Origin: Brevibacillus composti
GTDB taxonomy: Bacteria > Bacillota > Bacilli > Brevibacillales > Brevibacillaceae
Direction: 5' to 3'
Assembly (NCBI RefSeq): GCF_016406105.1
Contig: NZ_CP066308.1
Coordinates: 755,501 to 819,500, forward strand
Length of the DNA stretch: 64,000 nt
Positions within the stretch are counted from its first letter, which is position 1. The number at the start of each line of letters is the position of its first letter. This document shows positions 22,547-38,310 of the stretch, in pieces. The translations under genes and the position numbers were made by a program. The notes below the pieces were generated by a model that was given only the letters and a program-made list of their open reading frames with translations, did not search any database and was not told where the DNA came from.

Positions 22547-25500
22547 GGGCTCGTTTGCTTCGACATGGCCGGTGCTGGCCAAGCTGCTGGCTTTGCTGTG
22601 CTGTCTCCTGGCGCTGGGCGCCGCGCTGCGCATGGAAATCAGGCTGTTTCCCGACCGGGTCCTCCCGGAATATACGATCCGGCTGCAAGCCCCCGGCTTG
22701 AGTGCGGACCGGATCGATGAGCGGGTGACCCGCCCTGTGGAAGAGGCGATTCGCGCAAGCGGTCTGGCGCTGAAAATCTCTACGCTTTCGCAGAATCAAA
22801 CGGCTTCTCTCACCGTCAAAACGAAGGTCCGGCTGTTTGGCAGCGACCGGGAAAAGCTGGAGCAAATCATGCGGGAGGTGTCCGGGACGCTGCCTCTGGA
22901 CAGCTGGGAGCTGTCTTCCTCCAATCTGGCGGATGACCGTGTGGGCACCTACATGGTCTACGGTTCCGACATCCAAACCATCGCCGATGCGGCGAACAGA
23001 GACCTGTCGGAAAAATTGTCGGCCATCCCCGGGGTAGCCCGGGTGGAGGTCGACGATGCCAGCCTCAGACAGGAGGTGGAGCTGGTCTTTCATCCCACGA
23101 TGCTGCGGGCGCATGGCCTGACGCCCGGCGATGTGCTCGGTCAGCTGCAGGCCAAGGGTGCCGCGGAGCAGGTCGGCACGATCGGCAAGGGAGCGGACCG
23201 GACGAATTTCCGCTGGGGCCGGGAGTGGACCAGTCCGCAGGAGCTGGCGAGCGAGCTGATCTCCACCGGAAAAGGATACGTCCCGCTGAAAACGCTGGCT
23301 GATATCCGCGACCTGCGGGGAAGCAGGGGAGAGACGGTGCATGTCTATAAAGGCTCACCGGCTGTCGCCGTGACCGTCTATGCGGCAGGAGGTTCCCAGC
23401 TGCCCCAGCTTCGCGCAGAGGTGATCAATGCGGTAGACGAGGTGAAGCAGGCTGCGGACGGCCGCTATCAGATCGACCTGATCCACGATGTCGCGTGGAT
23501 CTTGTCGGCAGCTCTCCGGGATGGGAGCATTTTGGTCATTCTTTTGGCCTCGCTGACGGCGATTGCCGTAGGCCTGCGCTTGCGCAGCGTATCGGCTGGC
23601 ACCCTGTCCTTTCTTTTCTTGCTTTTGTCCACAGGCGCCTTGCTCGGGGGCATGTGGCTCGTCGGGATGCCGCTTACGCTCGTTTCCCTCGGACCGGTGC
23701 TGCTGTTTGCTCTCTTGTATGCCGGTGCGGGAGTCTGGCTCTTTTTGCGGCTGGCGGAAGAGCGGGATCTCTCCGCACAGGGCTGTGTGCGCAGTGTCTG
23801 GGCGCTGATGCGGCCGATCCTGCTGGGCATTGTGATCGTGGCGGCGGTGTTCACGGGCCTTTTGACCACCGATTTCATCAAAGCCTCCGATGCGGCACTT
23901 TTGACCGATGCGCTGCCAATCATCCCCCTCGGCACCGCCGTGATGACGCTCGTCTATGGATGGATCGTCCCGGTGTTGGCTGCAGCGTGGATCCCTGAGG
24001 GTTTTCCTGCCGTCGTCAGGGAAAAGACGAGGAGAGGATGGGCGGTGCGTCTCGCGGCAAGATGGGAGCGTTCTGTCGGCCTGGGCTTTGTGCCGTATGG
24101 GGTTACGCTGGCAGCGTCCCTTTTCGCGATCGTCTTCTTTCACCCGTTTGTGCTGGTCGACCCATACGGCAAAACAGACGGGCAGCAAAAGACCCTCTCT
24201 CTGTCCATGATTCAGGGGAGCAGCATCGATCAGTCGATGCAGGCCGCCCAAGTGGCCGAGGAGCGCTTGCGTAAGCTGGAAGAGGTGCGCGATCTCTACA
24301 CGGCAGCGTCACGGGAAAGCCTCACCTTTTATCTGCATCTGGAGGAAAAAGACAATTGGACGCGCAGCCGGATGGATTTGGAAAAGGAGCTGGACAAAGC
24401 TCTCAGAGAGGTACCCCATACCGATCCATTCGCGATGATCGTCTCCGAGGATCAGAAAACCAGGCTGGAGCTCACGATAAAAGGGCCGTCTCTGCACACG
24501 TCCAAAGAGATCGCCGATCAGCTGGTCACCCTGATGAAAGGGTTGCAGTGGACGGATGAGGATGGCCGCGAGATCATTACCGACGAGAGGATCGGGGCTG
24601 GCACCACAGGCACGTACATCGAGATGACGCCCAAACCGGAGATGCTGGCCCGCTACCAGGTGACGGAGGCAGAAATCAGGCGTCAGCTGGCGAGCTATCT
24701 GGGGAGACAGGCAGCCGGCAGTCTCGCCTGGAATGAGCGCGCGATCCCTGTGACGGCCCGCTTTCCCGACAATTGGATGGAGCATCCGGATCAGGTGAAA
24801 AACATCCTCGTCCGCACCCCTGGCGGAGCTGTCCGCCTGCAGGATCTGGCCGAGTGGAGGCTGGCCGACGAACCGCCTGTATTCCAACGGGAGGACGGTC
24901 AGTATGTGATCAAGGTAAGCAGTGCCGTCTCTCAGCCCGACTGGATTGACGGCTTGGCCTTTTCGATTCCGTTGCAGATGGAACAGAAGATGCCCATACC
25001 GGAGGGGTACCGCATCCTGACGGCCAATGAACTGAAGAAAGAGCAGGAGCAGGAGACGAAAAACACCGACAAGACCGGCCGCTTTCTCGCGGTAAGCGGG
25101 GCCGTCCTGATCGTGCTGGCGGCTGCTCTGGCGCTTCAGCGAAGATTGCGCGACAGCATCATCGCGCTCGCCTTCGTGCCTGTGCTCGCAGGAGGCGTCA
25201 TGTTTGGCCTCTTGCTGCTCGACCGTCCGCTGAATGTGATGGGCTTCTACGGAATGGCCGCCACGTCGGCTTTGCTGGTGCAGCAGACACTGCTTTTCCT
25301 GGACCGCCTGCACCTGTCGGCCAAAGCTGCGGAGACGATCATGGACGGCGTAAAGGCCGCCTCGTCTCGGGCCGTACCTGCCCTCCTGATCGTACTCTCC
25401 TCGGTCATCCTGGCCAGTCTGCCTTTTGGACTGGGCTGGGGAAGCGGGGATGATGTGCACGGCTCCTTCTCGGCAACCTTGCTGCTCGGCACGATTTTGG

Positions 25501-25793
25501 CCGGGTATGCAGCGATCGTCCTGGTACCCGGCGTGCACACGGCTGCGGAGAACCGCCGCTTGTACAGTCAGCCTTGGACGATTCCGCTCATCCGCAAACG
25601 GCTGCGGAACTGGTGGGAAAATGAAAAGGTGCGGCGGCAGGATCGCCGCGAGTTGAAACGAAGCCGATTCTCCCGACAGACGGGGGATGATTCCGGGGAG
25701 CGGGTGCACGAGAGCGCATCGGGCCGGCCCGGGGAGCTGTCCGACGAGGATTTCCTCCCATTGCCCAGAGAAGTGAGAGATGCCAACCTGTGA
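22539..25793 (+). CDS. RND superfamily (AcrB/SwrC-like) protein lacking the proton-relay residues
   Basis: 1,084 residues with the RND plan: one N-terminal helix, a large outer loop, six helices, a second large loop, and five or more C-terminal helices, then a charged tail. RND pumps carry an Asp-Asp pair in helix 4 and a Lys in helix 10. Here the corresponding stretches read SLGPVLLFALLYAGAGVW and AATSALLVQQTLLFLDRL, without these charges. The protein may work without the usual proton coupling, or be a non-pumping relative. It is coupled to the adaptor gene upstream. Confidence 0.85.
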   Translation: MNKGSFASTWPVLAKLLALLCCLLALGAALRMEIRLFPDRVLPEYTIRLQAPGLSADRIDERVTRPVEEAIRASGLALKISTLSQNQTASLTVKTKVRLFGSDREKLEQIMREVSGTLPLDSWELSSSNLADDRVGTYMVYGSDIQTIADAANRDLSEKLSAIPGVARVEVDDASLRQEVELVFHPTMLRAHGLTPGDVLGQLQAKGAAEQVGTIGKGADRTNFRWGREWTSPQELASELISTGKGYVPLKTLADIRDLRGSRGETVHVYKGSPAVAVTVYAAGGSQLPQLRAEVINAVDEVKQAADGRYQIDLIHDVAWILSAALRDGSILVILLASLTAIAVGLRLRSVSAGTLSFLFLLLSTGALLGGMWLVGMPLTLVSLGPVLLFALLYAGAGVWLFLRLAEERDLSAQGCVRSVWALMRPILLGIVIVAAVFTGLLTTDFIKASDAALLTDALPIIPLGTAVMTLVYGWIVPVLAAAWIPEGFPAVVREKTRRGWAVRLAARWERSVGLGFVPYGVTLAASLFAIVFFHPFVLVDPYGKTDGQQKTLSLSMIQGSSIDQSMQAAQVAEERLRKLEEVRDLYTAASRESLTFYLHLEEKDNWTRSRMDLEKELDKALREVPHTDPFAMIVSEDQKTRLELTIKGPSLHTSKEIADQLVTLMKGLQWTDEDGREIITDERIGAGTTGTYIEMTPKPEMLARYQVTEAEIRRQLASYLGRQAAGSLAWNERAIPVTARFPDNWMEHPDQVKNILVRTPGGAVRLQDLAEWRLADEPPVFQREDGQYVIKVSSAVSQPDWIDGLAFSIPLQMEQKMPIPEGYRILTANELKKEQEQETKNTDKTGRFLAVSGAVLIVLAAALALQRRLRDSIIALAFVPVLAGGVMFGLLLLDRPLNVMGFYGMAATSALLVQQTLLFLDRLHLSAKAAETIMDGVKAASSRAVPALLIVLSSVILASLPFGLGWGSGDDVHGSFSATLLLGTILAGYAAIVLVPGVHTAAENRRLYSQPWTIPLIRKRLRNWWENEKVRRQDRRELKRSRFSRQTGDDSGERVHESASGRPGELSDEDFLPLPREVRDANL

Positions 25794-25808
25794 TGGTTGG
25801 CATTTTCT
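25780..25808 (+). terminator. Terminator of the RND operon
   Basis: ATGCCAACC (25780-25788) and GGTTGGCAT (25795-25803) form a 9-bp stem followed by TTTTC. The stop codon of the RND gene lies in the loop. Confidence 0.85.
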
Positions 25809-25965
25809 TTGGGCATGCGCTCGTCTTTTACACGGCCAGGGAGAAAAGTAGCAGGGGAAAAAATACGCATTTCGGTCCAGAGCACACCCGCATTTTTTTG
25901 CTATGATAAAAAGAAGCGGCAAATTTTCACGGCAATGATCGTTTCCGAAGAGAAGGAGGAGCGTA

Positions 25966-26460
25966 GTGGGGAGAATGAAACGGGTGATCGATATCCTCCT
26001 CTTGGTGTGCATTTTGGCTGGGTTGTTCATCTCATCCTCCCAGCCGTACACCAAACAGGATTTGCGAGGGACGATCTCCCAGTACGTAGATGAAAAAACA
26101 GTTTCCGAAAAATGGAAGAATCTCTCTTTTCATTACGGGAAAAAAGAGATCAGCATGGACGACACGGGTGCGGCGGGAATGATCGAATTCTTTCTGCGCA
26201 AAGGGACGCATTTTACGGTCTTTGCCCTTTTGACGGCCGTCCTCTATCGCGTATTGCGGCATCGGCTCAGCGCAGCGGCAGCTCTCCCCTGGAGCGCGTT
26301 TCTCAGTCTGGCCGCCGCCGTTCTGGACGAGTGGCATCAGACGTTCACGCCGGATCGGACCGGACAGGTGGCGGATGTGGTCCTGGACGGCCTCGGGTCA
26401 GGGACGATGCTGTTGATCATCGCTGTGGGCCTGGGCTTGAAAAATAGGAAAAAGAAATGA
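25966..26460 (+). CDS. VanZ-like membrane protein
   Basis: About 164 residues. One N-terminal helix, an outer loop, then three membrane segments. LDEWHQTFTPDRTGQVADVVLDGLG is the core of the VanZ-like family. Family members include the teicoplanin-resistance protein VanZ, but most, like this one, have no known role. The GTG at 25966 lies 5 bp behind AAGGAGGA; the ATG at 25975 would be farther away. It stands alone behind the RND operon terminator. Confidence 0.85.
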   Translation: MGRMKRVIDILLLVCILAGLFISSSQPYTKQDLRGTISQYVDEKTVSEKWKNLSFHYGKKEISMDDTGAAGMIEFFLRKGTHFTVFALLTAVLYRVLRHRLSAAAALPWSAFLSLAAAVLDEWHQTFTPDRTGQVADVVLDGLGSGTMLLIIAVGLGLKNRKKK

Positions 26461-26711
26461 TAAAATCTGAAAATCTCAACCATCCTATGATGGGAAAGCA
26501 AGTGCAGGCAGGGGCAGGAGGGCAGATGAAAAAGCGCGGAGCGGTACGCTATCCGCTCGCGGAAAAAACCGGCGGGGAACCCTCGCGGCAAGTGCGCACC
26601 TAGAAAGAATAGGCTTTTCAGTCGTTGATTATCTCTGCTATACTATTGTAATGAGGCTTCTGGTAGAGGTTCTCACCATTTTTGGGAAATAATAAAAGGA
26701 GTGCAAACTGA
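26461..26711 (+). other. Intergenic region with GC-rich hairpins and a possible promoter
   Basis: No gene is seen. GAGCGG (26540-26545) pairs with CCGCTC (26554-26559), extendable on both sides, and CCATC-CTAT-GATGG forms another small hairpin upstream. A TATACT near 26639 or a TTGATT (26625-26630) with TGTAAT (26647-26652) could be the promoter of the S1-domain gene. The hairpins lie upstream of that promoter and do not match a riboswitch class I know. Confidence 0.35.
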
Positions 26712-27125
26712 ATGGCAGTACAAGTGGGAAGCATCATCGAGGGAAAAGTGACAGCGATTAAACCGTTTGGGATGTTCGTAGCAGTCAGCGAAACCGAGCA
26801 GGGCTTAGTCCACATTTCCCAAGTTGCGAACGGTTTTGTAAAGGATATCAACGAACACTTTTCCGTCGGGGATCAAGTCAAAGTAAAGGTCCTCTCCATT
26901 GATGATGCAGGCAAGATCTCGCTTTCGGTTCGTGCCGCACTGCCTGCTCCCGAGCGTCCGGAGCGCGAGGAGCGTCGTGGCGGTGGATATCGTGGGGGCG
27001 ACCGCGGAGGCAATTCAAGAAGAGACAGCGGGGCTTCCTTCGAAGACAAATTGAAAAAATGGCTGAAGCACAGCGAAGAGAACCTGGCTACCATTAACAA
27101 AAAGAACGCAAAACGTGGCTACTAG
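26712..27125 (+). CDS. S1 domain RNA-binding protein, YabR-like
   Basis: 137 residues. An S1 domain fills residues 3-73 (GSIIEGKVTAIKPFGMFVAV, GLVHISQVANGFVKDINEHF, VGDQVKVKVLSIDD). An Arg/Gly-rich linker and a Lys-rich tail with SFEDKLKKWLKHSEENL follow, the same layout as B. subtilis YabR, a small ribosome- or RNA-associated protein. AAAGGAG precedes the ATG. Unlike B. subtilis, it is not next to divIC. Confidence 0.87.
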   Translation: MAVQVGSIIEGKVTAIKPFGMFVAVSETEQGLVHISQVANGFVKDINEHFSVGDQVKVKVLSIDDAGKISLSVRAALPAPERPEREERRGGGYRGGDRGGNSRRDSGASFEDKLKKWLKHSEENLATINKKNAKRGY

Positions 27126-27219
27126 GCCTTGGCATAATGACGAGAGAAAGAGGGGCGGAACCTAACCGTCCTTTTTTCTTTTTTACATAATAGGCAAAAA
27201 GAGGGAAGGGGGTGTCAAC

Positions 27220-28041
27220 ATGAACAACTGCCAAGAAACCGTGCGAAAACAAATCGAGTCCGTCTTCGCCGATGTCCGGGCGGAAGAATCGGTACAAGAG
27301 GGAGTCTCTCTCTATACGGTCGGCTACCAAAGCGAAGGGCTCCACGTCAAAGCGCTGCTCGCTGTTCCTCAGCACACGGAGGAAATGCTCCCGGCTCTGC
27401 TGTATTGCCGCGGAGGCATTAAGGGCGTCGGCAGGGTGAGGCCGGAGCGGATCAGCCAGATGGCGGCTTTCGGGTATGTGATCCTGGCTCCCCATTACCG
27501 CGGAAATGAAGGTGGGGAGGGCAGAGATGAATTCGGCGGGGCCGACCGGCAGGATGTCTTCTCCGCGTATGAGCGGCTGCGCAGCCTTCCGCTCGTGGAC
27601 AGGGAGAGAATCAGCGTCTACGGCTTTTCGCGCGGGGGAATCATGGCCCTGCTGGCGGCGATCGAGTGTGAGGGTCTCCGGGCCGCTGTCGTCTGGGCTG
27701 GCGTGAGCGATCTGCGGCTGACCTACGAAGAGCGTGTCGATCTGCGGAAAATGCTGCGGCGTGTCGTCGGGCATCCGCGCAAGCAGGAAGAGGCTTACAT
27801 CGAGCGATCCCCTGTGTTTCGGGCTGCGGAAATCAAATGCCCGGTGCTGATCATTCACGGGACCGAAGATGAGAACGTGGGGGTCTTGCATGCACGCCGC
27901 CTGGCTGATGCCCTGCAGGCATGCGGCAAGCCGTATGAGTTGTGGCTGGCCGAGGGAGCCAGCCACCTGTTTAAGGGCGATCAACTGGAGGCATACACCA
28001 GACGCATGTTCGATTGGCTCGATCAGGTGGACAACCCTTAG
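27220..28041 (+). CDS. Alpha/beta hydrolase of the S9/dienelactone-hydrolase type
   Basis: 273 residues. GFSRGG carries the nucleophile serine (about residue 144). IHGTEDENVGV has the acid and GASHLFKG the histidine, as in prolyl-oligopeptidase (S9)-like and acyl-peptide hydrolase-like folds, but the beta-propeller domain is absent. YCRGGIKGVGRV may form the oxyanion hole. It could be a peptidase, esterase or acyl-peptide hydrolase. AAGGGGGTG precedes the ATG. It converges on the histidine kinase gene with a 4-bp overlap. Confidence 0.82.
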   Translation: MNNCQETVRKQIESVFADVRAEESVQEGVSLYTVGYQSEGLHVKALLAVPQHTEEMLPALLYCRGGIKGVGRVRPERISQMAAFGYVILAPHYRGNEGGEGRDEFGGADRQDVFSAYERLRSLPLVDRERISVYGFSRGGIMALLAAIECEGLRAAVVWAGVSDLRLTYEERVDLRKMLRRVVGHPRKQEEAYIERSPVFRAAEIKCPVLIIHGTEDENVGVLHARRLADALQACGKPYELWLAEGASHLFKGDQLEAYTRRMFDWLDQVDNP

Positions 28042-29864
28042 AGACGCCGTTGGGGGTGGAGCGGCAGTGTGATGACGATCTCCGTTCCTACCCCGACCTC
28101 GCTGAAAATCTGCATGCTGCCGCCGTGATTCTCCACCATGCGGCGCGAGATGGGCAAGCCCAAACCGGTTCCTTCTTCTTTCAGCGAGAAGAATGGGTCG
28201 AAAATGCGGATCAAATGCTCGCTTGGGATGCCGCTGCCGTTGTCCGAAACGTAGATGCGCACGTAAGAATCCACCACTTCGCTTTTCAGGAGAAGCGTTC
28301 CTCCGTTTTTCATCGCCTCGATGCTGTTCTTCATCAGGTTGAGCAGAATTTGCTTCAGCTGCTCGACATCCACTTCCAGCCGCGTCTCTTTGTCCAGCAG
28401 GTCGAGAATCTCGATGCCGTGCAGCGCGGCCTCTCCTTTCATCAAAGGAAGGATCGAATCCACCACTTCGCATAGAGAAGTCTCCCGATAATTGGGCTCC
28501 GAAGGTTTGGAGAGCATGAGCAGCTCCGTCACAATGCGGTTGACCCGCTCGATCTCTTCCAGGATCAGCGGGAGGTAGTGGCGATCCCGTTCCTCCTCCG
28601 GGAGCCGCTGCTGAAGCAGCTGGATAAACCCGTAAATCACCGTAAGCGGATTGCGAATTTCATGGGCGGCCCCGGCGGCAAGCTGTCCCACCATCGCCAG
28701 TTTTTCCGATTGATGCAAGTATTCCTGGAATTGCTCCTGTTCGGTAATGTCGGAGAAGGCCACCATCCATCCCGCTTCCTGATCGAACTGGTTGCGCAGA
28801 GGCACATAGGAGACCAGAGCGGTCAATGTGCTGCCGTCCTCCCGATACAGCTGGATCTTCCGGTTCTCAAACCACGGCGTCTGTTCGCCGGGTCCGCCTG
28901 TCCAGAGATCGGGCTCCTTGGTTAGCGGAAAGAAATTGCCATCCAGTTGGACCAGTTCCTTCGCCTTTTGATTGATGTGTACCCACTCCGAACCGAAGTG
29001 GCGGGTGATGATGCCCACCGGAAGCGAGTTCAATATCTGCTCTCGGACGTTTTTCTCTTCCTCCAGCACATGCCTGCGCTCCTCGTCCTTCTGGAAGAGC
29101 TGGTAAATGCTGGTGGACATTTTGTTGAATTCCTGCGCCAGCTCATGAAAATCATCTTTGGTCTTGTAGGTGATCTGCTTGCCAAACGTCCCTTTGGAAA
29201 CCTCGCCTACCTGTTGAATCAGGGACTGGATCGGACGGATCAGCTCCCTGCGGAAGTAAAAGGTGCAAAACAGTCCAAACAGGATGGCCGCCACAGATAC
29301 GCTGTAAGTCAGAATGAGCGATACCTTCAGCGATTCATTTGTCTCCTGAAATTCCTTGTTCGTCTGAAACTCCAGCTGATGGAGGGAGTATGTCACATGC
29401 CGCTCCAGTTGTTTGATGCGCGGCTGCACGTCATGTTCGAGCACGTAGCTGACCGCTGTCACATTGCTGGCCTGAAGCAGCGGATTGATTTTGTTCAGGA
29501 AAATGAAATCAAGCTGCCGGATCAGTTCGATGACGGACAAGAGTTCACTGTTTTCTTCTGTTTTTGGAATGGCCGAAAAGCGAGAGGTATTAAGAAGATT
29601 TGTGTAATACTGATCCAAATAAGACGGCTCCCGCGTCAGTGTGTACATATTGAGCGCATAGGTTTTCAGGTACAACTGGTTTTTGACGTCCAGGAGGGCG
29701 CTTGCCTGCGGCAGGACGTTTTGGGTCAGATGCATCTCGTCGGCGGTCACCTTGGTCATCTGGAAACTGAAGATGGTTGTGACAAAACCGATGAGGAGCA
29801 TCATGACCAGGTAGCTGAGCATGATCTTCTTCTGAAAACCTAAGCTGCGAAACGGAGACATCAT
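28038..29864 (-). CDS. Sensor histidine kinase with HAMP and PAS domains
   Basis: 608 residues. Two membrane segments (about 13-33 and 181-204) enclose an extracellular helical sensor. A HAMP domain, a PAS-like domain (about 275-395), the HisKA box AAHEIRNPLTVIYGF and the HATPase motifs NLMKNSIEAM, DNGSGIP and GTGLGLPISRRMVENHGG follow. The layout resembles KinA/KinB-like kinases that feed the Spo0A phosphorelay, and no response regulator is adjacent. The start follows GGAGGAG. It is 17 bp behind the Med/BMP-like gene, suggesting one signalling unit. Confidence 0.9.
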   Translation of the reverse strand: MMSPFRSLGFQKKIMLSYLVMMLLIGFVTTIFSFQMTKVTADEMHLTQNVLPQASALLDVKNQLYLKTYALNMYTLTREPSYLDQYYTNLLNTSRFSAIPKTEENSELLSVIELIRQLDFIFLNKINPLLQASNVTAVSYVLEHDVQPRIKQLERHVTYSLHQLEFQTNKEFQETNESLKVSLILTYSVSVAAILFGLFCTFYFRRELIRPIQSLIQQVGEVSKGTFGKQITYKTKDDFHELAQEFNKMSTSIYQLFQKDEERRHVLEEEKNVREQILNSLPVGIITRHFGSEWVHINQKAKELVQLDGNFFPLTKEPDLWTGGPGEQTPWFENRKIQLYREDGSTLTALVSYVPLRNQFDQEAGWMVAFSDITEQEQFQEYLHQSEKLAMVGQLAAGAAHEIRNPLTVIYGFIQLLQQRLPEEERDRHYLPLILEEIERVNRIVTELLMLSKPSEPNYRETSLCEVVDSILPLMKGEAALHGIEILDLLDKETRLEVDVEQLKQILLNLMKNSIEAMKNGGTLLLKSEVVDSYVRIYVSDNGSGIPSEHLIRIFDPFFSLKEEGTGLGLPISRRMVENHGGSMQIFSEVGVGTEIVITLPLHPQRRL

Positions 29865-29881
29865 CTAACTCCTCCATATAA

Positions 29882-30874
29882 CTAGCGTTGGTTTATGAGC
29901 CTTTCCAGATCCCTTTTGATCTCGTCTCGTACCGCCTGGGGCACCATCGGCCCGAATCCGCTGAGACGATTGACTCCCTCTTTTAAGCCATAGGTAACCG
30001 TCCCCGCAGGCAAGTCGCCGGACGTAAACTGCTGGACTACGGTCCGGTAGCATTGCTGAACGTCCTGAATCATCGAGGCGAGCACGTGATCCGGCGCGAT
30101 GTAGCGCTGGTCGGCAATGTAGCCGATGGCATAGATGTCGGCTCGCTGGGCCTCCGTGATAACGGCCAGATTCAGGCTGTCACCGGTCGTATAGATGACG
30201 TCAACGCCTTTGGCAATCATGTCCCTGGCCGCCGCAGTGGCACCCGTGATATCGTTGAAATCCTGGATTTTGCCGACGATCACCTCCGCGCTTGGCGAGG
30301 TCTCCTTGACGGCTTTCGTAAATCCGGAAAGTTGGTCATATTCCGTTGGTTTATCGATAATAATATAGCCTACTTTGTTGGAATTGGACATACGGGCTGC
30401 CAGCCGCCCTACCAGATAACCGGCCGGCCACATGTCATAGCGGATCGTCGTCTGGTTGAGATGGGGGGCTTCGCCGTTAAATGATACGAAACGAGTCTCG
30501 GGATAGTAGGGAGCAACTTCAGAGAAGGGCTGGGAAAAGATGACGCCGTGTCCGAAGATGAGGTCGTAGCCGCTCGAAGCGTAATCCTTGGCGACGTTGG
30601 CGATCTGATCGGGGTCCAAATTGCTGGCGATGTCCAGCAAAAAGCTGTGCGTTTTTTGCAGTTCGATCAAACTCTCCAAAGCGCTGCTGTTCCATCCTTG
30701 ATCATAGGTGGGGCCTTCCAGCATGAGGGCGATTTTGATCTGACGGTCAGGCATGCCGGTAGCGTCTATTCTCTTCAAATGTTGCAAGCTGGTCAGGAAC
30801 TGGCTGGTATTGAGCACCAACAGCGCGATCACCAGGCAGAGAAACAAGACGGGAATGGGCTGGAGCTTGGGCAT
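29882..30874 (-). CDS. BMP/Med-like substrate-binding family protein
   Basis: About 330 residues. The start at 30874 (MPKLQPIPVLFLC) follows GGAGGT and gives one N-terminal membrane segment without a lipobox cysteine close behind. The rest is a Bmp-family binding fold: ALMLEGPTYDQGWNS, SGYDLIFGHGVIFSQPFSEV, GYIADQRYIAPDHVLASMIQD. These segments resemble B. subtilis Med (a BMP-family activator of comK) more than classic nucleoside-binding lipoproteins. No ABC permease is nearby; the partner is a histidine kinase gene. It may sense a ligand outside the cell and pass this to the kinase (inference). Confidence 0.8.
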   Translation of the reverse strand: MPKLQPIPVLFLCLVIALLVLNTSQFLTSLQHLKRIDATGMPDRQIKIALMLEGPTYDQGWNSSALESLIELQKTHSFLLDIASNLDPDQIANVAKDYASSGYDLIFGHGVIFSQPFSEVAPYYPETRFVSFNGEAPHLNQTTIRYDMWPAGYLVGRLAARMSNSNKVGYIIIDKPTEYDQLSGFTKAVKETSPSAEVIVGKIQDFNDITGATAAARDMIAKGVDVIYTTGDSLNLAVITEAQRADIYAIGYIADQRYIAPDHVLASMIQDVQQCYRTVVQQFTSGDLPAGTVTYGLKEGVNRLSGFGPMVPQAVRDEIKRDLERLINQR

Positions 30875-30946
30875 GACTGTTACTACCTCCAAACTAAGAA
30901 ACGTAATTGAACACATTTCTACAATTTCGGACAAAATCCTCCCTGT

Positions 30947-30986
30947 AAAAAAGAGGAGGCCGATGCTCCACGAAAGCATCGGCCTC
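30947..30986 (-). terminator. Terminator of the His/Gln-rich protein gene
   Basis: Perfect 12-bp stem: GAGGCCGATGCT on the minus strand (30986-30975) with AGCATCGGCCTC (30967-30956 region), 8-9 nt loop, then CTCTTTTTT. It separates this gene from the Med-like gene that follows. Confidence 0.85.
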
Positions 30987-31009
30987 AAAAGGAATTCATC
31001 GGACCCGGG

Positions 31010-31405
31010 TCAGAAACGGTAGCCGCTGCGCAAAGCGCGCTGATTTTCGGTCGCATGCGCAGCGTGCTGGGAGAGGTGCGAATTAGCCGGATTGGAAGGA
31101 TGTGCATAGGGATTGTGGTACTGGTTAAGCGATTGAATCGCTTCGGGAGAGATTTGCCCCCTGAAAACGAGTGCGACGGGGGAAACCTGATCGTTATACG
31201 CTGTCATTTTTTCGTTGTAGGCGTTCAGGTACTGGCTCTGCCCCTGACCCCCCTGCGGGTTGTAGGCCTGGGCGCTGCGATGGTGCAGGTCAGCCTGCTC
31301 CTGATGATACATCGCTTGCTGCTGGTAGGCTTGCGCATGGCGTCGGTGCAGATCGGCATACTGCTGATGGATGTGGCCGGGATGTTGCTCGTTACGCTGG
31401 TACAT
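31010..31405 (-). CDS. His/Gln/Tyr-rich protein of unknown function
   Basis: About 131 residues, unusually rich in His, Gln, Tyr, Asn and Ala. The first half has near-repeats of the type ADLHRRHAQAYQQQ and ADLHHRSAQAYNPQ. No signal peptide or membrane segment is seen. The composition resembles small spore-coat or exosporium-type proteins of Bacillales, but I do not recognise a family. Start ATG at 31405 behind GGGAGG; it has its own strong terminator. Confidence 0.65.
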   Translation of the reverse strand: MYQRNEQHPGHIHQQYADLHRRHAQAYQQQAMYHQEQADLHHRSAQAYNPQGGQGQSQYLNAYNEKMTAYNDQVSPVALVFRGQISPEAIQSLNQYHNPYAHPSNPANSHLSQHAAHATENQRALRSGYRF

Positions 31406-31567
31406 GTGTGCCTCCCCTTTCGATGCGTGGTTTTGTGCAGGGCAAAACGGTGGCAGGTTCGCCACTCAAAGTATGTCCAACTAGGGGTCCTGATCATGCG
31501 AGCAAGGAATGGGAACAGAAGGCTCAGGGCATGATAACCCTGACGGAACATACAGGAGGTGGAGCCG

Positions 31568-31729
31568 GTGAAAAAGGATCTGATTGAAATTCCCCCCATC
31601 CATATCCCCGACGAAGTCAGACAGGTGGATTTGCCGGAAATAGGGGAAACCACGCCTCACCCCGAGCCGGATAGTCCCGCGGTCCATACAGAAGAAACGG
31701 ACCGTTCGATCGGATTTACAGCCGAGTGA
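31568..31729 (+). CDS. Small acidic protein of unknown function (53 residues)
   Basis: GTG start at 31568 behind AGGAGGTGG. The product begins MKKDLIEIPPIHIPDEV and is rich in Pro, Glu and Asp, ending in IGFTAE. The good ribosome binding site and the absence of a better frame support it. It is divergent from the His/Gln-rich protein gene and upstream of the CheY-like gene. No family is recognised. Confidence 0.55.
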   Translation: MKKDLIEIPPIHIPDEVRQVDLPEIGETTPHPEPDSPAVHTEETDRSIGFTAE

Positions 31730-31855
31730 GCAGGCCGGAGCCGAAAGCTGACGGGCAAACTGCAATTTCGACAAAAACTGCTATTTTCTCTCGTGGACAA
31801 GTCTCTCATTTTCTGTAAAAGTAAGGAGATGAGACATTTCAGGGGGGAAAGCTAC

Positions 31856-32209
31856 GTGGCCCGTTTGTTGATTGTAGACGATGCGGCGTTCATGAGAAAA
31901 CTCCTGACCGAGATGGTTGCCGGGAAGCACGAGGTATGTGGAGAGGCGACCACCGGACTGGAGGCAATCGAGAAGTACAAGGAATTGAGGCCCGACATCG
32001 TCACGATGGACATCACCATGCCAGGCATGCAAGGAATCGAAGCGATGAGAGAAATCCTGACGATCGATGAAGAGGCCAAGGTCCTCATCTGTTCGGCGAT
32101 CGGTCACAGGCAAAAAGTGCTGGAAGCCATGAAAAACGGAGCTCGCGACTTTGTGGTCAAACCCTTTCAAAAAGAACAAATCCTGGACGCCATCTCTCGT
32201 CTGGTGTAA
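31856..32209 (+). CDS. CheY-like single-domain response regulator
   Basis: 117 residues, only a receiver domain. LLIVDDAAFMRKLL gives the acidic pocket (D8, D9), D52 in VTMDITMPGM is the phosphorylation site, ICSAIG the Thr/Ser switch and VVKPF the conserved lysine. The GTG at 31856 follows GGGGGGAAA. The sequence is very CheY-like, but no chemotaxis genes are near. It could serve the orphan kinase at 28038 or a phosphorelay; that is speculation. Confidence 0.88.
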   Translation: MARLLIVDDAAFMRKLLTEMVAGKHEVCGEATTGLEAIEKYKELRPDIVTMDITMPGMQGIEAMREILTIDEEAKVLICSAIGHRQKVLEAMKNGARDFVVKPFQKEQILDAISRLV

Positions 32210-32222
32210 CGATAGGAGAAAC

Positions 32223-32249
32223 GCCGCCTCACCGTCAGGGCGGCTTTTT
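32223..32249 (+). terminator. Terminator of the CheY-like gene
   Basis: GCCGCC (32223-32228) pairs with GGCGGC (32239-32244) and TTTTT follows. Confidence 0.8.
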
Positions 32250-32331
32250 CACGTTTTTTGCGAGAACGTCACGCCATCTTTCCGGTATAATGGAGTCATA
32301 GCCTCACACGAGTGGCAAAGAGGGTGGAGCT

Positions 32332-33567
32332 GTGTCCAATCAAATGAATTATTTCCAAAATTATCAGCATGCCGATATTGATGAGCTGGCCGATGTCATC
32401 GGGGAGCTTTTGCAAAATCCGATCACGATCGAGGACGCCGACCACAAGCTGATCGCGTACAGCACTCATGGCGAGAGCACCGACCAGGCCAGGTGGTCCA
32501 CCATCATGAGCAGGCGGGTGCCGGAAAAGGTCCTGACCCGGCTGTGGAAGGACGGCGTCTTCCAGGAGCTTCTGACGAAGGATGAGCCTGTCCACATCCC
32601 TGCCAAAGATGAGGTAGGGCTGGGAAAACGGGTCGCCATCGCGATTCGCAAAGGAAGCGATGTGCTCGGGTACATCTGGGCCATCGAGGTCAACCGTCCG
32701 ATTACCGAGGAAGACGACGAAATTTTGCGCCAGGCAGCCCGGTCTGCCGTCTCCCGGCTCATCCAGCGGCAGGGCAAGCGGAAAGCGGAGGAGCAGCGGC
32801 GCAAAGAGTTTTTATGGGAGCTGCTGCTGGGCAACCACTCCAGCGACACCCTGATCCGCCAGAAGGCGGAGAGCCTGCAGTTGAATCTGACCGCTCCCTA
32901 CCTGATCTGCGTGATCGAGGCCGCCGGGATGCGGCTGGAGCAGTACCTCTATCCCTTGCTGATGCGGGACAAGCTGCTCTGGGTCGTAGACGGGAGTCAA
33001 ATCATCCTGTTGATCGGACAGCAGGGGACGAGCAGAAAAGTGGAGGAGGCCCTGATCCGCAAAGTGCAGCAATTCCTCGCCGACTCTCTCGGTAAGCTGC
33101 AGTCGCATGAGAGCCAGGGACAGGTGACGGCAGGCTACGGGCGCAGCTACAAGGCGTACGCCGATATCGTCAAAAGCTATCACGAGGCCCTGCACGCCCT
33201 GAAGATCAAGCGGCTGTTTCCGCGGGAAACCGAGGGCATTCACGGCTATCACGAGCTGGGAATCTACCGCTATCTGATCAAGCTGAAGCAGTGGGACGAA
33301 GAACAGGGGTACGAAAATGAAAGACTGGCAAAACTAAAGCGATATGACGCGGAAAACCAGACCGCGATGACCGAAACCCTGGAGACCTATCTGGATGCCG
33401 CCGGCAAGGTAAACGTCACGGCCAATCGGCTTCATATTCACATCAATACACTCAGCTACCGATTGAAGCGAATCGAGGAAATCATGCAGGTGGATCTGGA
33501 AGACATGAATCAACGCGTCTCCCTCTATCTGGAGTTGAAACTGGACAAATTAAACAGGGAACAATAG
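32332..33567 (+). CDS. adeR: PucR-family activator, AdeR-like
   Basis: 411 residues. An N-terminal GAF-like sensor region (about 15-155), a GGDEF-like central part typical of the CdaR/PucR class, and the C-terminal PucR helix-turn-helix (AAGKVNVTANRLHIHINTLSYRLKRIEEIM) are seen. B. subtilis AdeR, of the same family, activates the alanine dehydrogenase gene; here ald follows 128 bp downstream on the same strand. GTG at 32332 behind AGGGTGGAG. A TATAAT at 32286-32291 may be its -10. Confidence 0.82.
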   Translation: MSNQMNYFQNYQHADIDELADVIGELLQNPITIEDADHKLIAYSTHGESTDQARWSTIMSRRVPEKVLTRLWKDGVFQELLTKDEPVHIPAKDEVGLGKRVAIAIRKGSDVLGYIWAIEVNRPITEEDDEILRQAARSAVSRLIQRQGKRKAEEQRRKEFLWELLLGNHSSDTLIRQKAESLQLNLTAPYLICVIEAAGMRLEQYLYPLLMRDKLLWVVDGSQIILLIGQQGTSRKVEEALIRKVQQFLADSLGKLQSHESQGQVTAGYGRSYKAYADIVKSYHEALHALKIKRLFPRETEGIHGYHELGIYRYLIKLKQWDEEQGYENERLAKLKRYDAENQTAMTETLETYLDAAGKVNVTANRLHIHINTLSYRLKRIEEIMQVDLEDMNQRVSLYLELKLDKLNREQ

Positions 33568-33571
33568 TTCT

Positions 33572-33589
33572 TTTGTGGATTTTCACAAA
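33572..33589. promoter_or_regulatory. Inverted repeat upstream of ald
   Basis: TTTGTG-N6-CACAAA, a perfect 6-bp-arm palindrome about 60 bp upstream of the probable ald -10 (33645-33650). The position suits an activator, and the neighbour encodes an AdeR-like activator. The pairing is inferred. Confidence 0.45.
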
Positions 33590-33633
33590 TAGGAGGAACG
33601 CAAGATTAAGGGAATCCCCAAGGAAACTCGGTC

Positions 33634-33650
33634 TGTAAACGCTGTACAAT
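33634..33650 (+). promoter_or_regulatory. ald -10 box with an overlapping cre-like sequence
   Basis: TACAAT at 33645-33650 is a plausible -10 with no good -35, as expected for an activated promoter. TGTAAACGCTGTAC (33634-33647) resembles a cre box apart from the last two positions, so CcpA control is possible but weakly supported. Confidence 0.35.
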
Positions 33651-33695
33651 GTAGGTAATCTCGTTATTCGGCATTTGCAAAGGAGGACTTGTTCG

Positions 33696-34820
33696 ATGAT
33701 TGTAGGGATTCCCAAAGAGATTAAGAACAACGAAAATCGCGTAGCCATTACGCCAGCAGGTGTTGCGGCTCTGGTCCAGAATGGACATACGGTCCGCATC
33801 GAAAACAGCGCAGGTTTGGGAAGCGGTTTCACCAATGAAGATTACACAGCCGTCGGCGCCGAAATCGTAGCGACCGCTGCGGAAGCGTGGAATGCTGACA
33901 TGGTGATGAAAGTAAAAGAACCGCTGCCCAGTGAATACGGCTTTTTCCGTGAGGGACAAATCCTCTTCACGTACCTGCACCTGGCTCCGGAAGCGGAACT
34001 GACTCGTGCATTGGTAGAGAAAAAAGTGGTAGCTATCGCTTATGAAACCATCCAACTGGACAATGGCGCTCTGCCGCTCCTCATGCCAATGTCCGAAGTG
34101 GCAGGACGCATGTCCGTGCAAATCGGCGCGCAATTCCTGGAAAAGCCGTATGGCGGAAAGGGTGTGCTCCTCGGGGGCGTACCAGGTGTGCAGAAGGGTG
34201 AAGTCGTCGTCATCGGCGGTGGGATCGTCGGTACCAACGCGGCGAAAATGGCGCTGGGCCTCGGTGCCAATGTAACCATCATCGACGTGAACGCGGACCG
34301 TCTGCGCCAGCTCGACGACCTGTTCCAAGGCCGCGTGCAAACGCTGATGTCCAACTCCTTCAACATCGCCAATGCCGTGAAAAAAGCGGACCTGCTCATC
34401 GGTGCCGTACTGATCCCGGGTGCTCGTGCGCCTCGTCTGGTTACAGAGGATATGGTGAAAACCATGGCTCCTGGCTCCGTCATCGTCGACGTGGCCATCG
34501 ACCAAGGCGGCTCCATCGAAACCTGTGACCGCGTATCGACCCATGACAATCCGACCTATGAAAGACACGGCGTCATCCACTACTCCGTAGCCAACATGCC
34601 GGGTGCGGTAGCGCGCACGTCCACGCTGGCCCTGACCAACGTGACCTTGCCATACGCAGTGCTGCTGGCCAACAAGGGATACCGCCAAGCCATCGCCGAA
34701 AACCGTCCGCTGTCCAAAGGCGTAAACGTGATCGACGGCAAAGTGACCTACAAAGCGGTAGCCGATGCGCAAAACCTGCCGTACACACCGCTCGACGAAG
34801 CGCTGATGGTGAAAAACTAA
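33696..34820 (+). CDS. ald: Alanine dehydrogenase
   Basis: Converts L-alanine and NAD+ to pyruvate, ammonia and NADH. 374 residues, the usual length. The N-terminus [17 protein letters not shown] and the NAD-binding glycine motif [22 protein letters not shown] are diagnostic; [11 protein letters not shown] and [16 protein letters not shown] follow. Start ATG at 33696 behind AAAGGAGG. The upstream adeR-like gene and palindrome suggest alanine-responsive activation, useful for growth on amino acids and for sporulation. Confidence 0.96.
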
Positions 34821-34853
34821 GCAGGCACCAACCGGATATACCAAGACAAGACA

Positions 34854-34884
34854 ACAGCCCTGCTGATCGGGGCGGGCTGTTTTT
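34854..34884 (+). terminator. Terminator of ald
   Basis: ACAGCCC (34854-34860) pairs with GGGCTGT (34874-34880), followed by TTTT. Confidence 0.82.
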
Positions 34885-34967
34885 GCGTGCCAAACAGATC
34901 GCATGTACACGCTCCTCAAAAATATGTTATGCTACTAGGCAGAATAAACGGAGTGAGGAGTGCAACG

Positions 34968-36056
34968 ATGTATCCTTTAGTGCGGAAATTCCTGTTTCAG
35001 ATGGACGCGGAAGAAGCGCATGAAAAAACCGTCCATCTCCTCAAGACGGCAGAGAATTCCCCTGCCGCCAAGAGCTTGCTGAAAATGATGTACCAGGTGC
35101 GCGACAAGCGGCTGGAAAACAAGCTGTGGGGAATTTCCTTTCCCAATCCGGTAGGGCTTGCCGCCGGCTTTGACAAAAATGCAGAGGTCTATCATGCCCT
35201 GGCCGCGATCGGCTTTGGTTTCGTGGAGGTAGGTACGATCACGCCCCAAGGGCAGCCGGGGAATCCCAAGCCTCGCCTGTTTCGCTTGGTAGAGCATGAG
35301 GCGATTATCAACCGGATGGGCTTTAATAACCTGGGAGCGTATCTGGCCTCCCAGAACCTGATCGATTACGCCTATGCAGATGTGCCGATCGGGATCAATA
35401 TCGGCAAAAACAAGATGACGCCTAATGAAGAGGCCGCGAGCGACTACAGCAAATGTCTGGACATGCTGTACAACTACGGCCATTACTTTGTGATCAACGT
35501 CAGCTCGCCGAACACGCCCAATCTCCGCGATTTGCAGGAGACCGAGAGTTTGCGCGCCTTGATCCGCGCAGTGCGGGAGAAGACTGCAGAGCTGGAGGCG
35601 CGCGGCACGAGTGCCAAGCCGATTTTGCTCAAAGTGGCACCCGACATGGCGGACGAGCAGATGCGGGATGTGGTCCGGGCGGCGGTGGAGGAAGGACTGT
35701 CCGGAATTATCGCCACCAACACGACGCTCTCCCGCGAGCCTGTGCACAACCATCCCCGCGCCGGCGAAGCAGGCGGGCTGAGCGGCAAGCCGCTGGAAGC
35801 CAGAGCCACCGCCTGGGTGAAAGAGATCTTTCAGGAAGTGGGGGACCGCGTGCCGATCATCGGCGTCGGCGGCATCTTTACCGGCGAGGACGCGTACCGG
35901 AAGATTCGCGCGGGAGCCAGTCTGGTCCAGGTGTACTCCGGCATGGCCTACCAAGGGCCGGGCATCGCCAAGATGATCAACAAGCAGCTGCTTCGCCTGC
36001 TGGAGCAGGACGGCTTTACTCACATCAGCGAAGCGATCGGAGCAGATGCCCGGTAG
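34968..36056 (+). CDS. pyrD: Dihydroorotate dehydrogenase (quinone), class 2
   Basis: Fourth step of pyrimidine synthesis, oxidising dihydroorotate to orotate with transfer to membrane quinone. 362 residues. FPNPVGLAAGFDKNAE, NVSSPNTPNLRDLQ (with the class-2 catalytic serine), and IIGVGGIFTGEDAY are family motifs. The extra N-terminal helices (LVRKFLFQMDAEEAHEKTVHLL) are those of the membrane-bound class 2, in contrast to the class 1B enzyme of B. subtilis. ATG at 34968 behind GAGGAGTG. Confidence 0.95.
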   Translation: MYPLVRKFLFQMDAEEAHEKTVHLLKTAENSPAAKSLLKMMYQVRDKRLENKLWGISFPNPVGLAAGFDKNAEVYHALAAIGFGFVEVGTITPQGQPGNPKPRLFRLVEHEAIINRMGFNNLGAYLASQNLIDYAYADVPIGINIGKNKMTPNEEAASDYSKCLDMLYNYGHYFVINVSSPNTPNLRDLQETESLRALIRAVREKTAELEARGTSAKPILLKVAPDMADEQMRDVVRAAVEEGLSGIIATNTTLSREPVHNHPRAGEAGGLSGKPLEARATAWVKEIFQEVGDRVPIIGVGGIFTGEDAYRKIRAGASLVQVYSGMAYQGPGIAKMINKQLLRLLEQDGFTHISEAIGADAR

Positions 36057-36114
36057 TTGGGCCGGCGCAAAGCAGGCCCCTGCGGTAAACCGGTTCGTTG
36101 ACAATCAAATACTG

Positions 36115-36285
36115 TGCAGCCAGGTGCCCTTATGAGAAGTAAGGGGTAACAGGGAATCGGGTGAAAATCCCGAGCGGTCCCGCCACTGTAACCGGGGAAT
36201 GCTCTTTTCGCATGAAGCCACTCATTTCAGGATGGGGAAGGCAAAAAGAGTGTGATGATTCGGAAGCCAGGAGACCTACCTCGCT
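36115..36285 (+). promoter_or_regulatory. Cobalamin riboswitch
   Basis: Conserved blocks in order: AGGTGCCC, GGGTAACAGGGAATCGGGTG, GAAAATCCCGAGCGGTCCCG, CCACTGTAACCG and GCCAGGAGACCTACC (36266-36280). This is the B12-box class of adenosylcobalamin riboswitch. It precedes the cobalt-transport genes cbiMNQO, so cobalamin excess would turn off cobalt uptake through the terminator at 36402. Confidence 0.95.
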
Positions 36286-36401
36286 GCTACACCCATCAGC
36301 CTTCGAGGAAAGGAGAGGTGAGCCAAGACGAACACGACGGTCTCGCAAGCGTTTTTCGCAGCGTGTGCTGCACGCTGCCGCGTCGTGGGGCTGCTTTTTG
36401 C

Positions 36402-36437
36402 CAAGCTCATCCGCTCAGGGTGAGCTTGTTTTATTTT
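36402..36437 (+). terminator. Riboswitch-controlled terminator before cbiM
   Basis: CAAGCTCA (36402-36409) pairs with TGAGCTTG (36421-36428), followed by TTTTATTTTT. It lies between the riboswitch and the cbiM start and is the likely off-switch. Confidence 0.85.
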
Positions 36438-36460
36438 TGCTCTCCAAAAGGAGCAAGGGA

Positions 36461-37231
36461 GTGATTGCTGTGAACAACAGAAGACGCACGGCGGCCAGTG
36501 GCCTTCTGATCGCCGGGTTTGTGCTGTACTTTTTGCTGAATGAGCCGGAGACCGGCCATGCCATGCACATTATGGAGGGGTATTTGCCCGTTGGCTGGTC
36601 GCTCTTCTGGTGGGCCGTCTTTTTGCCGTTCTTTTTCCTCGGGCTGCGGTCGATCAACCGGATTGTCAAGGATCACCCCGAATTTAAACTGCTCTTGGGG
36701 GTAGCGGGAGCGTTTGCCTTTGTGCTGTCCGCGTTGAAAATCCCCTCTGTCACGGGAAGCAGCTCGCATCCGACAGGGACGGGGCTGGGCGCGATCCTGT
36801 TCGGCCCGCTGGTGATGGCTGTGCTGGGCAGCCTGGTGCTGCTATTCCAAGCGCTGCTGCTGGCCCATGGGGGATTGACCACGCTGGGAGCCAATGCGTT
36901 TTCGATGGCGGTTGTCGGCCCCGTCGTGGCATACGCCGTCTATCGGCTCGTGGCTGGCAGGAGAGGCAATCAGAAAATCGGGATTTTTCTCGCGGCGTCC
37001 TTGGCCGACCTGAGCACCTATCTGGTCACCTCGGTACAGTTGGCTTTGGCGTTTCCGGCCGAATCGGGAGGCATTCTCGCTTCTTTGGCCAAGTTTGCAG
37101 GCATATTCGGGCTGACGCAGGTGCCGCTGGCGATCAGTGAGGGACTGTTGACCGTGCTCGTGTGGAACTGGCTTCAAACCTACAACGGACAAGAACTGTC
37201 GCAACTGCGGCTGCTGAAAAAGGAGGGCTGA
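36461..37231 (+). CDS. cbiM: Cobalt ECF transporter substrate-specific component CbiM
   Basis: About 257 residues with an N-terminal signal-like helix and several membrane segments. [14 protein letters not shown] is the metal-binding N-terminal motif of Cbi[21 protein letters not shown] and [14 protein letters not shown] follow. GTG at 36461 behind AAGGAG; a GTG at 36470 is also possible. First gene of cbiMNQO under the cobalamin riboswitch. Confidence 0.95.
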
Positions 37232-37234
37232 GGA

Positions 37235-37519
37235 GTGAAGCGTTGGACGAATGGACTATTGCTGCTGATGGTCGCCGCCTTGGCTGTCCTCCCCTTGCTG
37301 ATGATAAACGATTCGGAATTCCCTGGAGCCGATGGCGTGGCGGAGGAAGCGATTGCGGAATTGGCCCCCGATTATCAGCCGTGGTTTCAGCCTGTGCTGG
37401 AGCCGCCCGGCGGAGAAACGGAAAGCCTCTTGTTTGCCCTCCAGGCGGCTTTGGGAGCGGGAGTCATCGGATACGCGCTCGGCCTGTATCGCGGCCGGAT
37501 GAAGAAGAAGAGCGAATGA
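37235..37519 (+). CDS. cbiN: Cobalt transport protein CbiN
   Basis: 94 residues with two membrane helices around an outer loop (GADGVAEEAIAELAPDYQPWF). This size, plan and position between cbiM and cbiQ identify CbiN, the small subunit that helps load cobalt into CbiM. GTG start behind GAGG, 3 bp after cbiM; ends in an ATGA overlap with cbiQ. Confidence 0.92.
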   Translation: MKRWTNGLLLLMVAALAVLPLLMINDSEFPGADGVAEEAIAELAPDYQPWFQPVLEPPGGETESLLFALQAALGAGVIGYALGLYRGRMKKKSE

Positions 37520-38310
37520 TCAGGCGGATCGACGCGCTTGCCTACGAGAGCGGACTCCGCCGTCTTCCCGCCGCACATAAGCTGCTGTTTTCCCTTGCGG
37601 CCTTGACCCTCGCCCTGATCAGCCATCCGCCGGTCCAGGCGCTGCTGTTCGTCTGGATGAGCGTCTGGATCCTGGTGTATGCGCGGACCCCTTGGCGGGT
37701 ATATGTAGCGGCTGTCGGGGCTTCTCTCGTCTTTTTGCTCGCGGGGATGCCCGCGCTTCTGCTGGAGGCAGCCCGGCTGGAGACGGCAGGGCCGGCAGCG
37801 GGAGTTCTGGCGAGCCGGGAGCTGGGCGGCTGGGTGGTCTACGTGACGGAAGAGGGATTTCGCAGGGGATGGGCCTTAGCCGTTCGTTCACAGGCGGCCT
37901 TTGTCTGCTTCGCTTTCCTGTTCTTCACGGTTCCGTTCGCAGAACTGCTGCAGGTGTTCCGGAGGCTGGGCGTCCCTGCCGTGCTGACGGATCTTCTGAT
38001 GATTATGTACCGCTTTATTTTCGTCCTGCTGGAGACAGCTCAGCAGATGTGGATCGCACAGCGGGCGAGGGGCGGGCACGCGGGCATGACAGCTGCGCTG
38101 AAAGATGCGGCCAGGCTGGTCTTTCAGTTGTTTGCCCGGGCGATGCTGCGCTACCGGCAGATGTACATCAGCATGACAGCGAGGGGATTTGCCGATGATT
38201 TTCAGGTGATCGGGACCGTCGCATCTGCCGCCCCGTCCAAGCGGTATCAGCGGGAGGCGGCGGCGGGGCTGATTGTTCTCGCGATACTGGAATGGTGGAT
38301 GAGAGGATGA
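37516..38310 (+). CDS. cbiQ: Cobalt ECF transporter transmembrane protein CbiQ
   Basis: 264 residues with several helices. The EcfT coupling motifs are visible as QRARGGHAG and SMTARGFADD (the ARG motifs that dock to the ATPases). The start ATG at 37516 overlaps the cbiN stop; the end overlaps the cbiO start. Confidence 0.93.
   Translation: MIRRIDALAYESGLRRLPAAHKLLFSLAALTLALISHPPVQALLFVWMSVWILVYARTPWRVYVAAVGASLVFLLAGMPALLLEAARLETAGPAAGVLASRELGGWVVYVTEEGFRRGWALAVRSQAAFVCFAFLFFTVPFAELLQVFRRLGVPAVLTDLLMIMYRFIFVLLETAQQMWIAQRARGGHAGMTAALKDAARLVFQLFARAMLRYRQMYISMTARGFADDFQVIGTVASAAPSKRYQREAAAGLIVLAILEWWMRG

Follow-up and report, generated by a model that had tools for sequence, protein, structure and literature searches.

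A Med-like binding protein encoded beside a sensor histidine kinase in Brevibacillus: a candidate binding-protein-dependent receptor

Introduction

What does a membrane-anchored binding protein of the BMP/PnrA family do when its neighbor is a sensor histidine kinase? This question is raised by a gene pair in a stretch of 64,000 nucleotides of Brevibacillus composti DNA (positions 755,501 to 819,500 of contig NZ_CP066308.1), hereafter called the window. An earlier note, made from the letters of this stretch, had likened the binding protein to Bacillus subtilis Med and proposed that the two proteins form a ligand-sensing input to sporulation or competence. To our knowledge, the signals of most sporulation-type kinases have yet to be described, and so has the mode in which Med acts on comK. 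Here, we analyzed the conservation of the pair, the binding pocket, the kinase sensor, the relationship to Med, and the possible output.

Organization of the gene pair

The features of the locus are summarized in Table 1. The binding protein scored 161 bits against the Pfam Bmp model PF02608, whose gathering cut-off is 24.1, indicating that it belongs to the BMP/PnrA-like family. Its structure model (pLDDT 92) showed a type I binding protein following an anchor helix that spans residues 6-38, and the sequence contained no lipobox cysteine, in keeping with the anchoring that the earlier note had assumed. The short spacing to the kinase gene and the lack of an adjacent ABC partner, both pointed out in the same note, were also recovered. 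No ABC genes were present among the reading frames at 24000-38000 of the window, so that the protein could not be classed by its neighbors as an ABC substrate-binding protein. The window genome encodes three PF02608 proteins, and the other two each have ABC ATPase and permease genes downstream. In the kinase, Pfam detected HAMP, HisKA, and HATPase_c domains, and no PAS domain was matched at 0.001.

Upstream of the pair, the window also encodes a small Tyr/Gln/His-rich protein with repeated short motifs (31010-31465, reverse strand). Homologues with 45-73% identity were found in six family loci, and the protein gave no Pfam match at 0.01.

Table 1. Positions of the features of the BMP-kinase locus in the window
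Feature	Position	Strand	Remark
BMP/PnrA-type (PBP type I) ligand-binding protein with N-terminal membrane anchor	29882..30874	-	330 aa; ATG at 30874
Sensor histidine kinase	28038..29864	-	608 aa; no adjacent same-strand response regulator
Kinase N-terminal region: TM1, helical extracytoplasmic sensor, TM2, HAMP	29058..29864	-	homologous among paired kinases
HisKA phospho-acceptor domain with HEIRNPLT box	28503..28688	-	Pfam
HATPase_c domain	28056..28370	-	Pfam
Intergenic gap of 17 bp with ribosome site for kinase	29865..29881	-	GGAGG before kinase start
Sigma-H-like promoter motif AGGATTTT-spacer-RNNGAA	30917..30940	-	64-85 nt before start in 13/32 family pairs
Strong terminator-like hairpin	30956..30986	-	between pair and upstream gene
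CheY-like single-domain response regulator, divergent neighbor	31793..32209	+	genus-conserved; may be a partner

Conservation of the BMP-kinase linkage

Orthologues of the binding protein were searched for in 60 relatives with a threshold of E≤5e-93. An orthologue linked to the kinase was found in all 25 other genomes of the genus and in 6/10 other genomes of the family; the pair was absent from the four remaining ones (G031, G033, G034, and G035), which contained distant BMP proteins only. At all of the 31 family orthologue loci, the kinase orthologue lay directly downstream, with identities of 47-78% for the binding protein and 57-87% for the kinase. Unlinking of the two genes in close relatives, which the earlier note had regarded as decisive against its proposal, was thus not observed.

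The survey of Med-like neighborhoods for linked kinases that the same note had suggested was conducted with a BMP profile over 398 genomes of the class. Every match to E 1.8e-64 was taken together with the loci of the relatives, giving 83 loci besides the window; this "Med-like" cut of E 1e-64 was set after viewing the match list, and the next match, a partial one in G296 at 1.8e-56, was excluded. At 52 of the 83 loci, a same-strand kinase was located directly downstream without FabH. FabH followed at the other 31 (71 to 1354 nt downstream), with no kinase match in the stretch. None of the 83 loci carried both, and three genomes (G353, G198, and G288) contained one locus of each kind. The sensor and the catalytic part were encoded in one frame at 51/52 paired loci. 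At L100, the kinase was split in two frames and the sensor frame was visible in the sensor-profile search only, and this locus was kept as kinase-linked; at L107, the binding protein was split in two frames. Either sequencing error or decay could account for these splits.

No match to a BMP-type permease was found at any of the 52 paired loci, and the same permease test was positive at all four ABC-linked control loci of the class set. A weak ABC ATPase match on the opposite strand was observed at four paired loci (L055 and L108-L110). In a wider profile search, 22 of 80 loci were of the paired kind, and these came from Brevibacillus, Aneurinibacillus, one Paenibacillaceae MAG, and one record titled Anoxybacillus sediminis. 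The last of these (L154) carries a Brevibacillus-type pair at 69% identity and is probably a misnamed record.

More distant BMP loci served as controls. All 58 of them, mostly from other phyla, were without a kinase match, and 49/58 showed an ABC ATPase match, although in some cases the sequence breaks off shortly behind the BMP gene. Similarly, 20 regions outside the class (22 BMPs), which are a selection among the better matches, gave no kinase match with a profile that is blind to YesM-type kinases, and most of them show ABC genes. Taken together, the conserved linkage of the binding protein with one kind of sensor kinase suggests that the pair works as one receptor, and it supports well the earlier idea of a ligand-sensing pair.

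Several other arrangements were seen during this survey. A YesM/YesN-type pair lies upstream of a BMP-ABC set at L295, outside the class. In Bacillota outside the class (L276-L286), at least five BMP matches per genome were found in 6/7 genomes, and many of these have an ABC set and a flavodoxin-like gene as neighbors. At L054, the Aneurinibacillus regulator-BMP-kinase set is preceded by an FAD oxidoreductase gene; in the window genome (L146), a homologue with 76% identity precedes a BMP-ABC set.

The ligand-binding pocket

The nearest solved structures of the binding protein were 2hqb and guanosine-bound Lbp, and its fold also matched PnrA, BmpD, and AtzT. According to an excerpt of the report on BmpA, the base is sandwiched by Phe27 and Phe176, and Asp225 and Lys242 are among the polar contacts (PMC13325309). 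These residues were mapped by alignment onto 51 paired rows (L107 was left out), 31 Med rows, and 13 ABC-linked rows. Phe27 corresponds to W61 of the window protein, a position occupied by Trp in 50/51 paired rows, and Phe176 corresponds to F206, which is aromatic in 48/51. Asp225 is replaced with I253 (Ile, Leu, or Val in 51/51 rows) and Lys242 with Q270 (Lys in 0/51). Furthermore, the pocket residues D58 and Q59 were conserved in all 51 paired rows.

The two ribose anchors were therefore absent from 51/51 paired and 31/31 Med rows, and the window protein was not classed as a nucleoside-binding one. Among the ABC-linked rows, the anchors were present in four and missing in nine of 13, indicating that their loss alone does not distinguish the pair from BMPs of transporters; the change marks a wider branch of the family, not pairing with a kinase. 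From the retained aromatic residues and the replaced anchors, the ligand is probably a flat heterocycle bound without the usual ribose contacts.

These data bear on the reading in which the binding protein belongs to a transporter, sharing a permease encoded elsewhere, and the kinase has only a regulatory role in the same pathway. Proteins of the BMP family are mostly ABC binding proteins, the window genome has two BMP-ABC systems, and the pocket changes of the binding protein are common to nine of the 13 ABC-linked rows; orphan binding proteins that possibly share transporters are reported as well, in the excerpted part of one study (PMC13068155). Nevertheless, a kinase adjoins 52/52 such BMPs, no BMP-type permease was matched at these loci, where the weak opposite-strand ATPase match stands alone in four, and the sensor family adjoins a BMP in 51/52 cases among the candidates scored. 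We consequently regard the transporter reading as improbable. An ordinary ABC binding protein was likewise disfavored as a candidate by the lack of a BMP-type permease beside the pair, and the loss of the ribose anchors is a poor argument in this respect.

The kinase sensor

A sensor profile made from the N-terminal part of the kinase was run over the same 398 genomes, with at most six candidates scored per genome. Among these candidates, 52 reached E≤1.3e-69 and the next was at 4e-44; of these 52 strong matches, 51 adjoin a BMP of the Med-like group. Most of the weaker matches were frames 560 to 600 aa long, and the one examined, from the window genome (4.6e-28), was a chemoreceptor. The exception among the strong matches is L149 in G216, where an oxidoreductase, a response regulator, and the kinase follow one another as they do at the Aneurinibacillus loci, with the BMP missing. 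The same genome also has an intact BMP-kinase locus (L106). Thus, the sensor kinase can occur alone.

The catalytic part was more variable than the sensor. The phospho-acceptor box was HEIRNPL at 37/52 paired loci (34 of family f1 and three of f41/f57) and HELRTPL or HEVRTPL at 15/52. By Pfam, no PAS domain was found in the three kinases scanned of these 15, and one was present in two scanned f41/f57 kinases, weakly in L128. Since the sensor is homologous while the catalytic part varies, the constant unit consists of the binding protein and the sensor.

The structure model of the sensor was all-helical, with moderate confidence (pLDDT 74, pTM 0.42). With VIA-align, LytSN from the XylFII complex ranked first (Z 12.8; 2.5 A over 117 residues), level with chemoreceptor domains, and further matches were NarQ, TorS (3i9w, Z 11.0; 3o1i, Z 10.1), and QseE. 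Z values near 13 are frequent among helical bundles and can come about by chance, so the likeness of the modeled fold to LytSN and TorS is no more than suggestive. The sensor tree was weakly resolved, with a chemoreceptor outgroup on a very long branch, and it does not contradict the BMP tree described below.

The fold likeness to ligand-binding four-helix sensors would also suit a kinase that senses alone through its helical domain, as a chemoreceptor- or NarX-type sensor, with the binding protein tuning or inhibiting it without a ligand. The BMP-less copy in G216 agrees with such a kinase, and a study on CuaD suggests that CuaSR without CuaD still perceives cellobiose (PMC10384115). However, the pocket of the binding protein is strongly conserved (D58, Q59, and W61, as given above), and a mere adaptor would not need such conservation. 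Sensing by the kinase alone is accordingly given a low probability.

Relationship to Med

The best solved-structure match of the binding protein, 2hqb, is the "transcriptional activator of comK gene" of Bacillus halodurans. In B. subtilis, Med adjoins fabH, and the FabH loci represent the Med locus. Two BMP trees were constructed, both without L107. The first tree omitted 16 close Brevibacillus-family rows; in the second, 41 of 96 rows were dropped and the outgroup was made closer by including the 22 BMPs found outside the class.

With transporter BMPs as the outgroup, the kinase-paired BMPs and Med formed one clade (100/99) apart from the transporter proteins. This common clade and the similar pocket bear out the resemblance to Med that the earlier note had described. 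Within it, Med formed a clade of its own (100/100) that excludes the window protein. In the second tree, Med was sister to the f12, f2, and f25 pairs (94/89) and was thus placed inside the paired group, and the paired rows formed a single clade in 0/200 bootstrap trees. This single clade was recovered at 15% in the first tree, which lacked the closer outgroup, and an AU test did not reject it beside Med (p 0.31). Among the BMPs compared, the window protein is the closest kin of Med with an identifiable partner. A true Med orthologue was ruled out as its identity by the kinase locus, the lack of FabH at 52/52 paired loci, and the separate Med clade.

The nesting in the second tree would fit a scheme in which Med descends from the binding subunit of the receptor: an ancestral kinase-paired BMP would have lost its kinase and moved to fabH, B. 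subtilis Med would be an orphaned co-receptor acting on competence through another kinase, and the intact Brevibacillus pair would feed an extracellular, probably heterocyclic signal into the phosphorelay. Because of the 15% in the first tree and the outcome of the AU test, we hold this scheme only as a minor and rather doubtful possibility, despite the second tree. That the window protein is a Med orthologue acting on competence beside an incidental kinase is very improbable. In favor of this reading, the best solved relative is the Med-type 2hqb and the pocket changes are common to Med. Against it, Med has its own clade at fabH, three genomes (G353, G198, and G288) carry both Med and the pair, and the kinase linkage of the pair has been retained across families.

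Candidate output of the kinase

A response regulator gene was located directly upstream at 10/11 Aneurinibacillus-type loci (f12), and the one regulator scanned was of the Fis-type helix-turn-helix kind. No response regulator gene adjoins the pair on its strand in the Brevibacillus loci. A divergent CheY-like regulator was present about 1 kb away at 24/25 genus loci, and the 25th (L038) ends at a contig edge.

The catalytic core of the window kinase matched the KinD model in part, with 213 bits and thus far short of the cut-off of 775, and scored 274 bits against the AtoS model (cut-off 646). Its closest relative, with 45% identity, was another kinase of the same genome without a regulator gene in the stretch examined (L233/L296). 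The term KinA/KinB-like used in the earlier note can apply loosely and to the catalytic part only; the sensor consists of a helical domain with two TM segments. The window genome also contains a 231-aa frame with a SPOB_a (Spo0B-type) domain. After the HEIRNPLT box, the window kinase has Tyr, whereas five of six other boxes compared from its genome have Lys or Arg. With Tyr instead of Lys or Arg beside the phosphorylation site, the target could be other than Spo0F.

The promoter comparison, in which start codons were assigned by alignment for the more distant members of the family, showed the sigma-H-like motif at 13/32 family loci, compared to 26 of 2742 background stretches. The pattern, based on the sigma-H consensus, was chosen after inspecting the alignment, and the family loci, being related, are not independent cases. 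In the other family promoters, TATAAT occurred at about the same place in 15/32, and neither motif was found in 4/32. Across the window, the pattern was found three times against 1.8 expected, no rarer than by chance, and therefore it counts only by its position upstream of the pair.

The partly KinD-like core, together with the sigma-H-like promoter in some species, favours a link to sporulation but does not establish it. Given that the pair is a receptor, the sporulation phosphorelay is the likeliest candidate output in Brevibacillus, which we propose tentatively. For sporulation and competence alike, this assignment is drawn from the catalytic type and the promoter motif only.

Discussion

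The observations at hand are an operon-like layout, a linkage kept in several families, homologous sensors that, in the genomes searched and with one exception, occur beside a BMP, and a conserved pocket. On these grounds, we consider it likely that the binding protein and the kinase constitute one binding-protein-dependent receptor of the three-component type, resembling XylFII-LytS and TorT-TorS, with a predicted complex and ligand. The physical complex, the ligand class, and the output are the parts of this reading that we infer. In the proposed mechanism, the anchored BMP would bind a small ligand, probably a flat heterocycle, outside the membrane and dock on the four-helix sensor of the neighboring kinase. 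By analogy with the action of XylFII on LytS and of TorT on TorS, the docked protein would then act via the TM helices and HAMP to set how active the kinase is. In Brevibacillus, the likeliest recipient of the signal would be the sporulation phosphorelay, and in the Aneurinibacillus type, the signal would pass to the upstream-encoded response regulator with the Fis-type helix-turn-helix. A conserved receptor in which a Med-like protein is combined with a kinase would provide a defined candidate both for the signal of a sporulation kinase and for the action of Med.

In open-licence PMC literature, searched by titles and abstract openings, we found no description of a BMP or Med protein paired with a kinase. 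As far as this literature shows, the window pair would be the first case of a BMP-family binding protein linked to a sensor kinase. Like the xylose sensor XylFII-LytS of Clostridium beijerinckii, it combines a PBP type I protein with a helical kinase sensor, and as in that system, the gene of the binding protein has kept its place next to that of a kinase whose sensor is extracytoplasmic. Unlike XylFII-LytS, the window has a BMP-family protein instead of a xylose-binding one and a HAMP kinase, and in Brevibacillus there is no adjacent same-strand regulator. In TMAO sensing, TorT is similarly a periplasmic binding protein that acts on a helical kinase sensor, and TorS was among the fold matches. 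TorT is not of the BMP family, and its partner TorS is a hybrid kinase of larger size.

The CuaD-CuaS-CuaR system of Ruminiclostridium cellulolyticum also has a solute-binding lipoprotein encoded beside a kinase, and CuaD binds the extracellular part of CuaS in a two-hybrid test; by the same partial account, it differs in its sugar-binding protein of another family, in a sensor that is not a plain helical bundle, and in its own adjacent regulator (PMC10384115). The nucleoside-binding proteins PnrA, BmpA, and NupN share the fold and the aromatic sandwich with the window protein, but these proteins are ABC-linked and, in the excerpt on BmpA, have the ribose-binding Asp and Lys (Asp225 and Lys242; PMC13325309). 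Finally, Med is a sister or descendant clade with the same ribose-anchor changes and with 2hqb as the best solved structure; unlike the window protein, it resides at fabH with no kinase match in 31/31 loci and forms its own clade. The pair provides an experimentally accessible lead to the function of Med.
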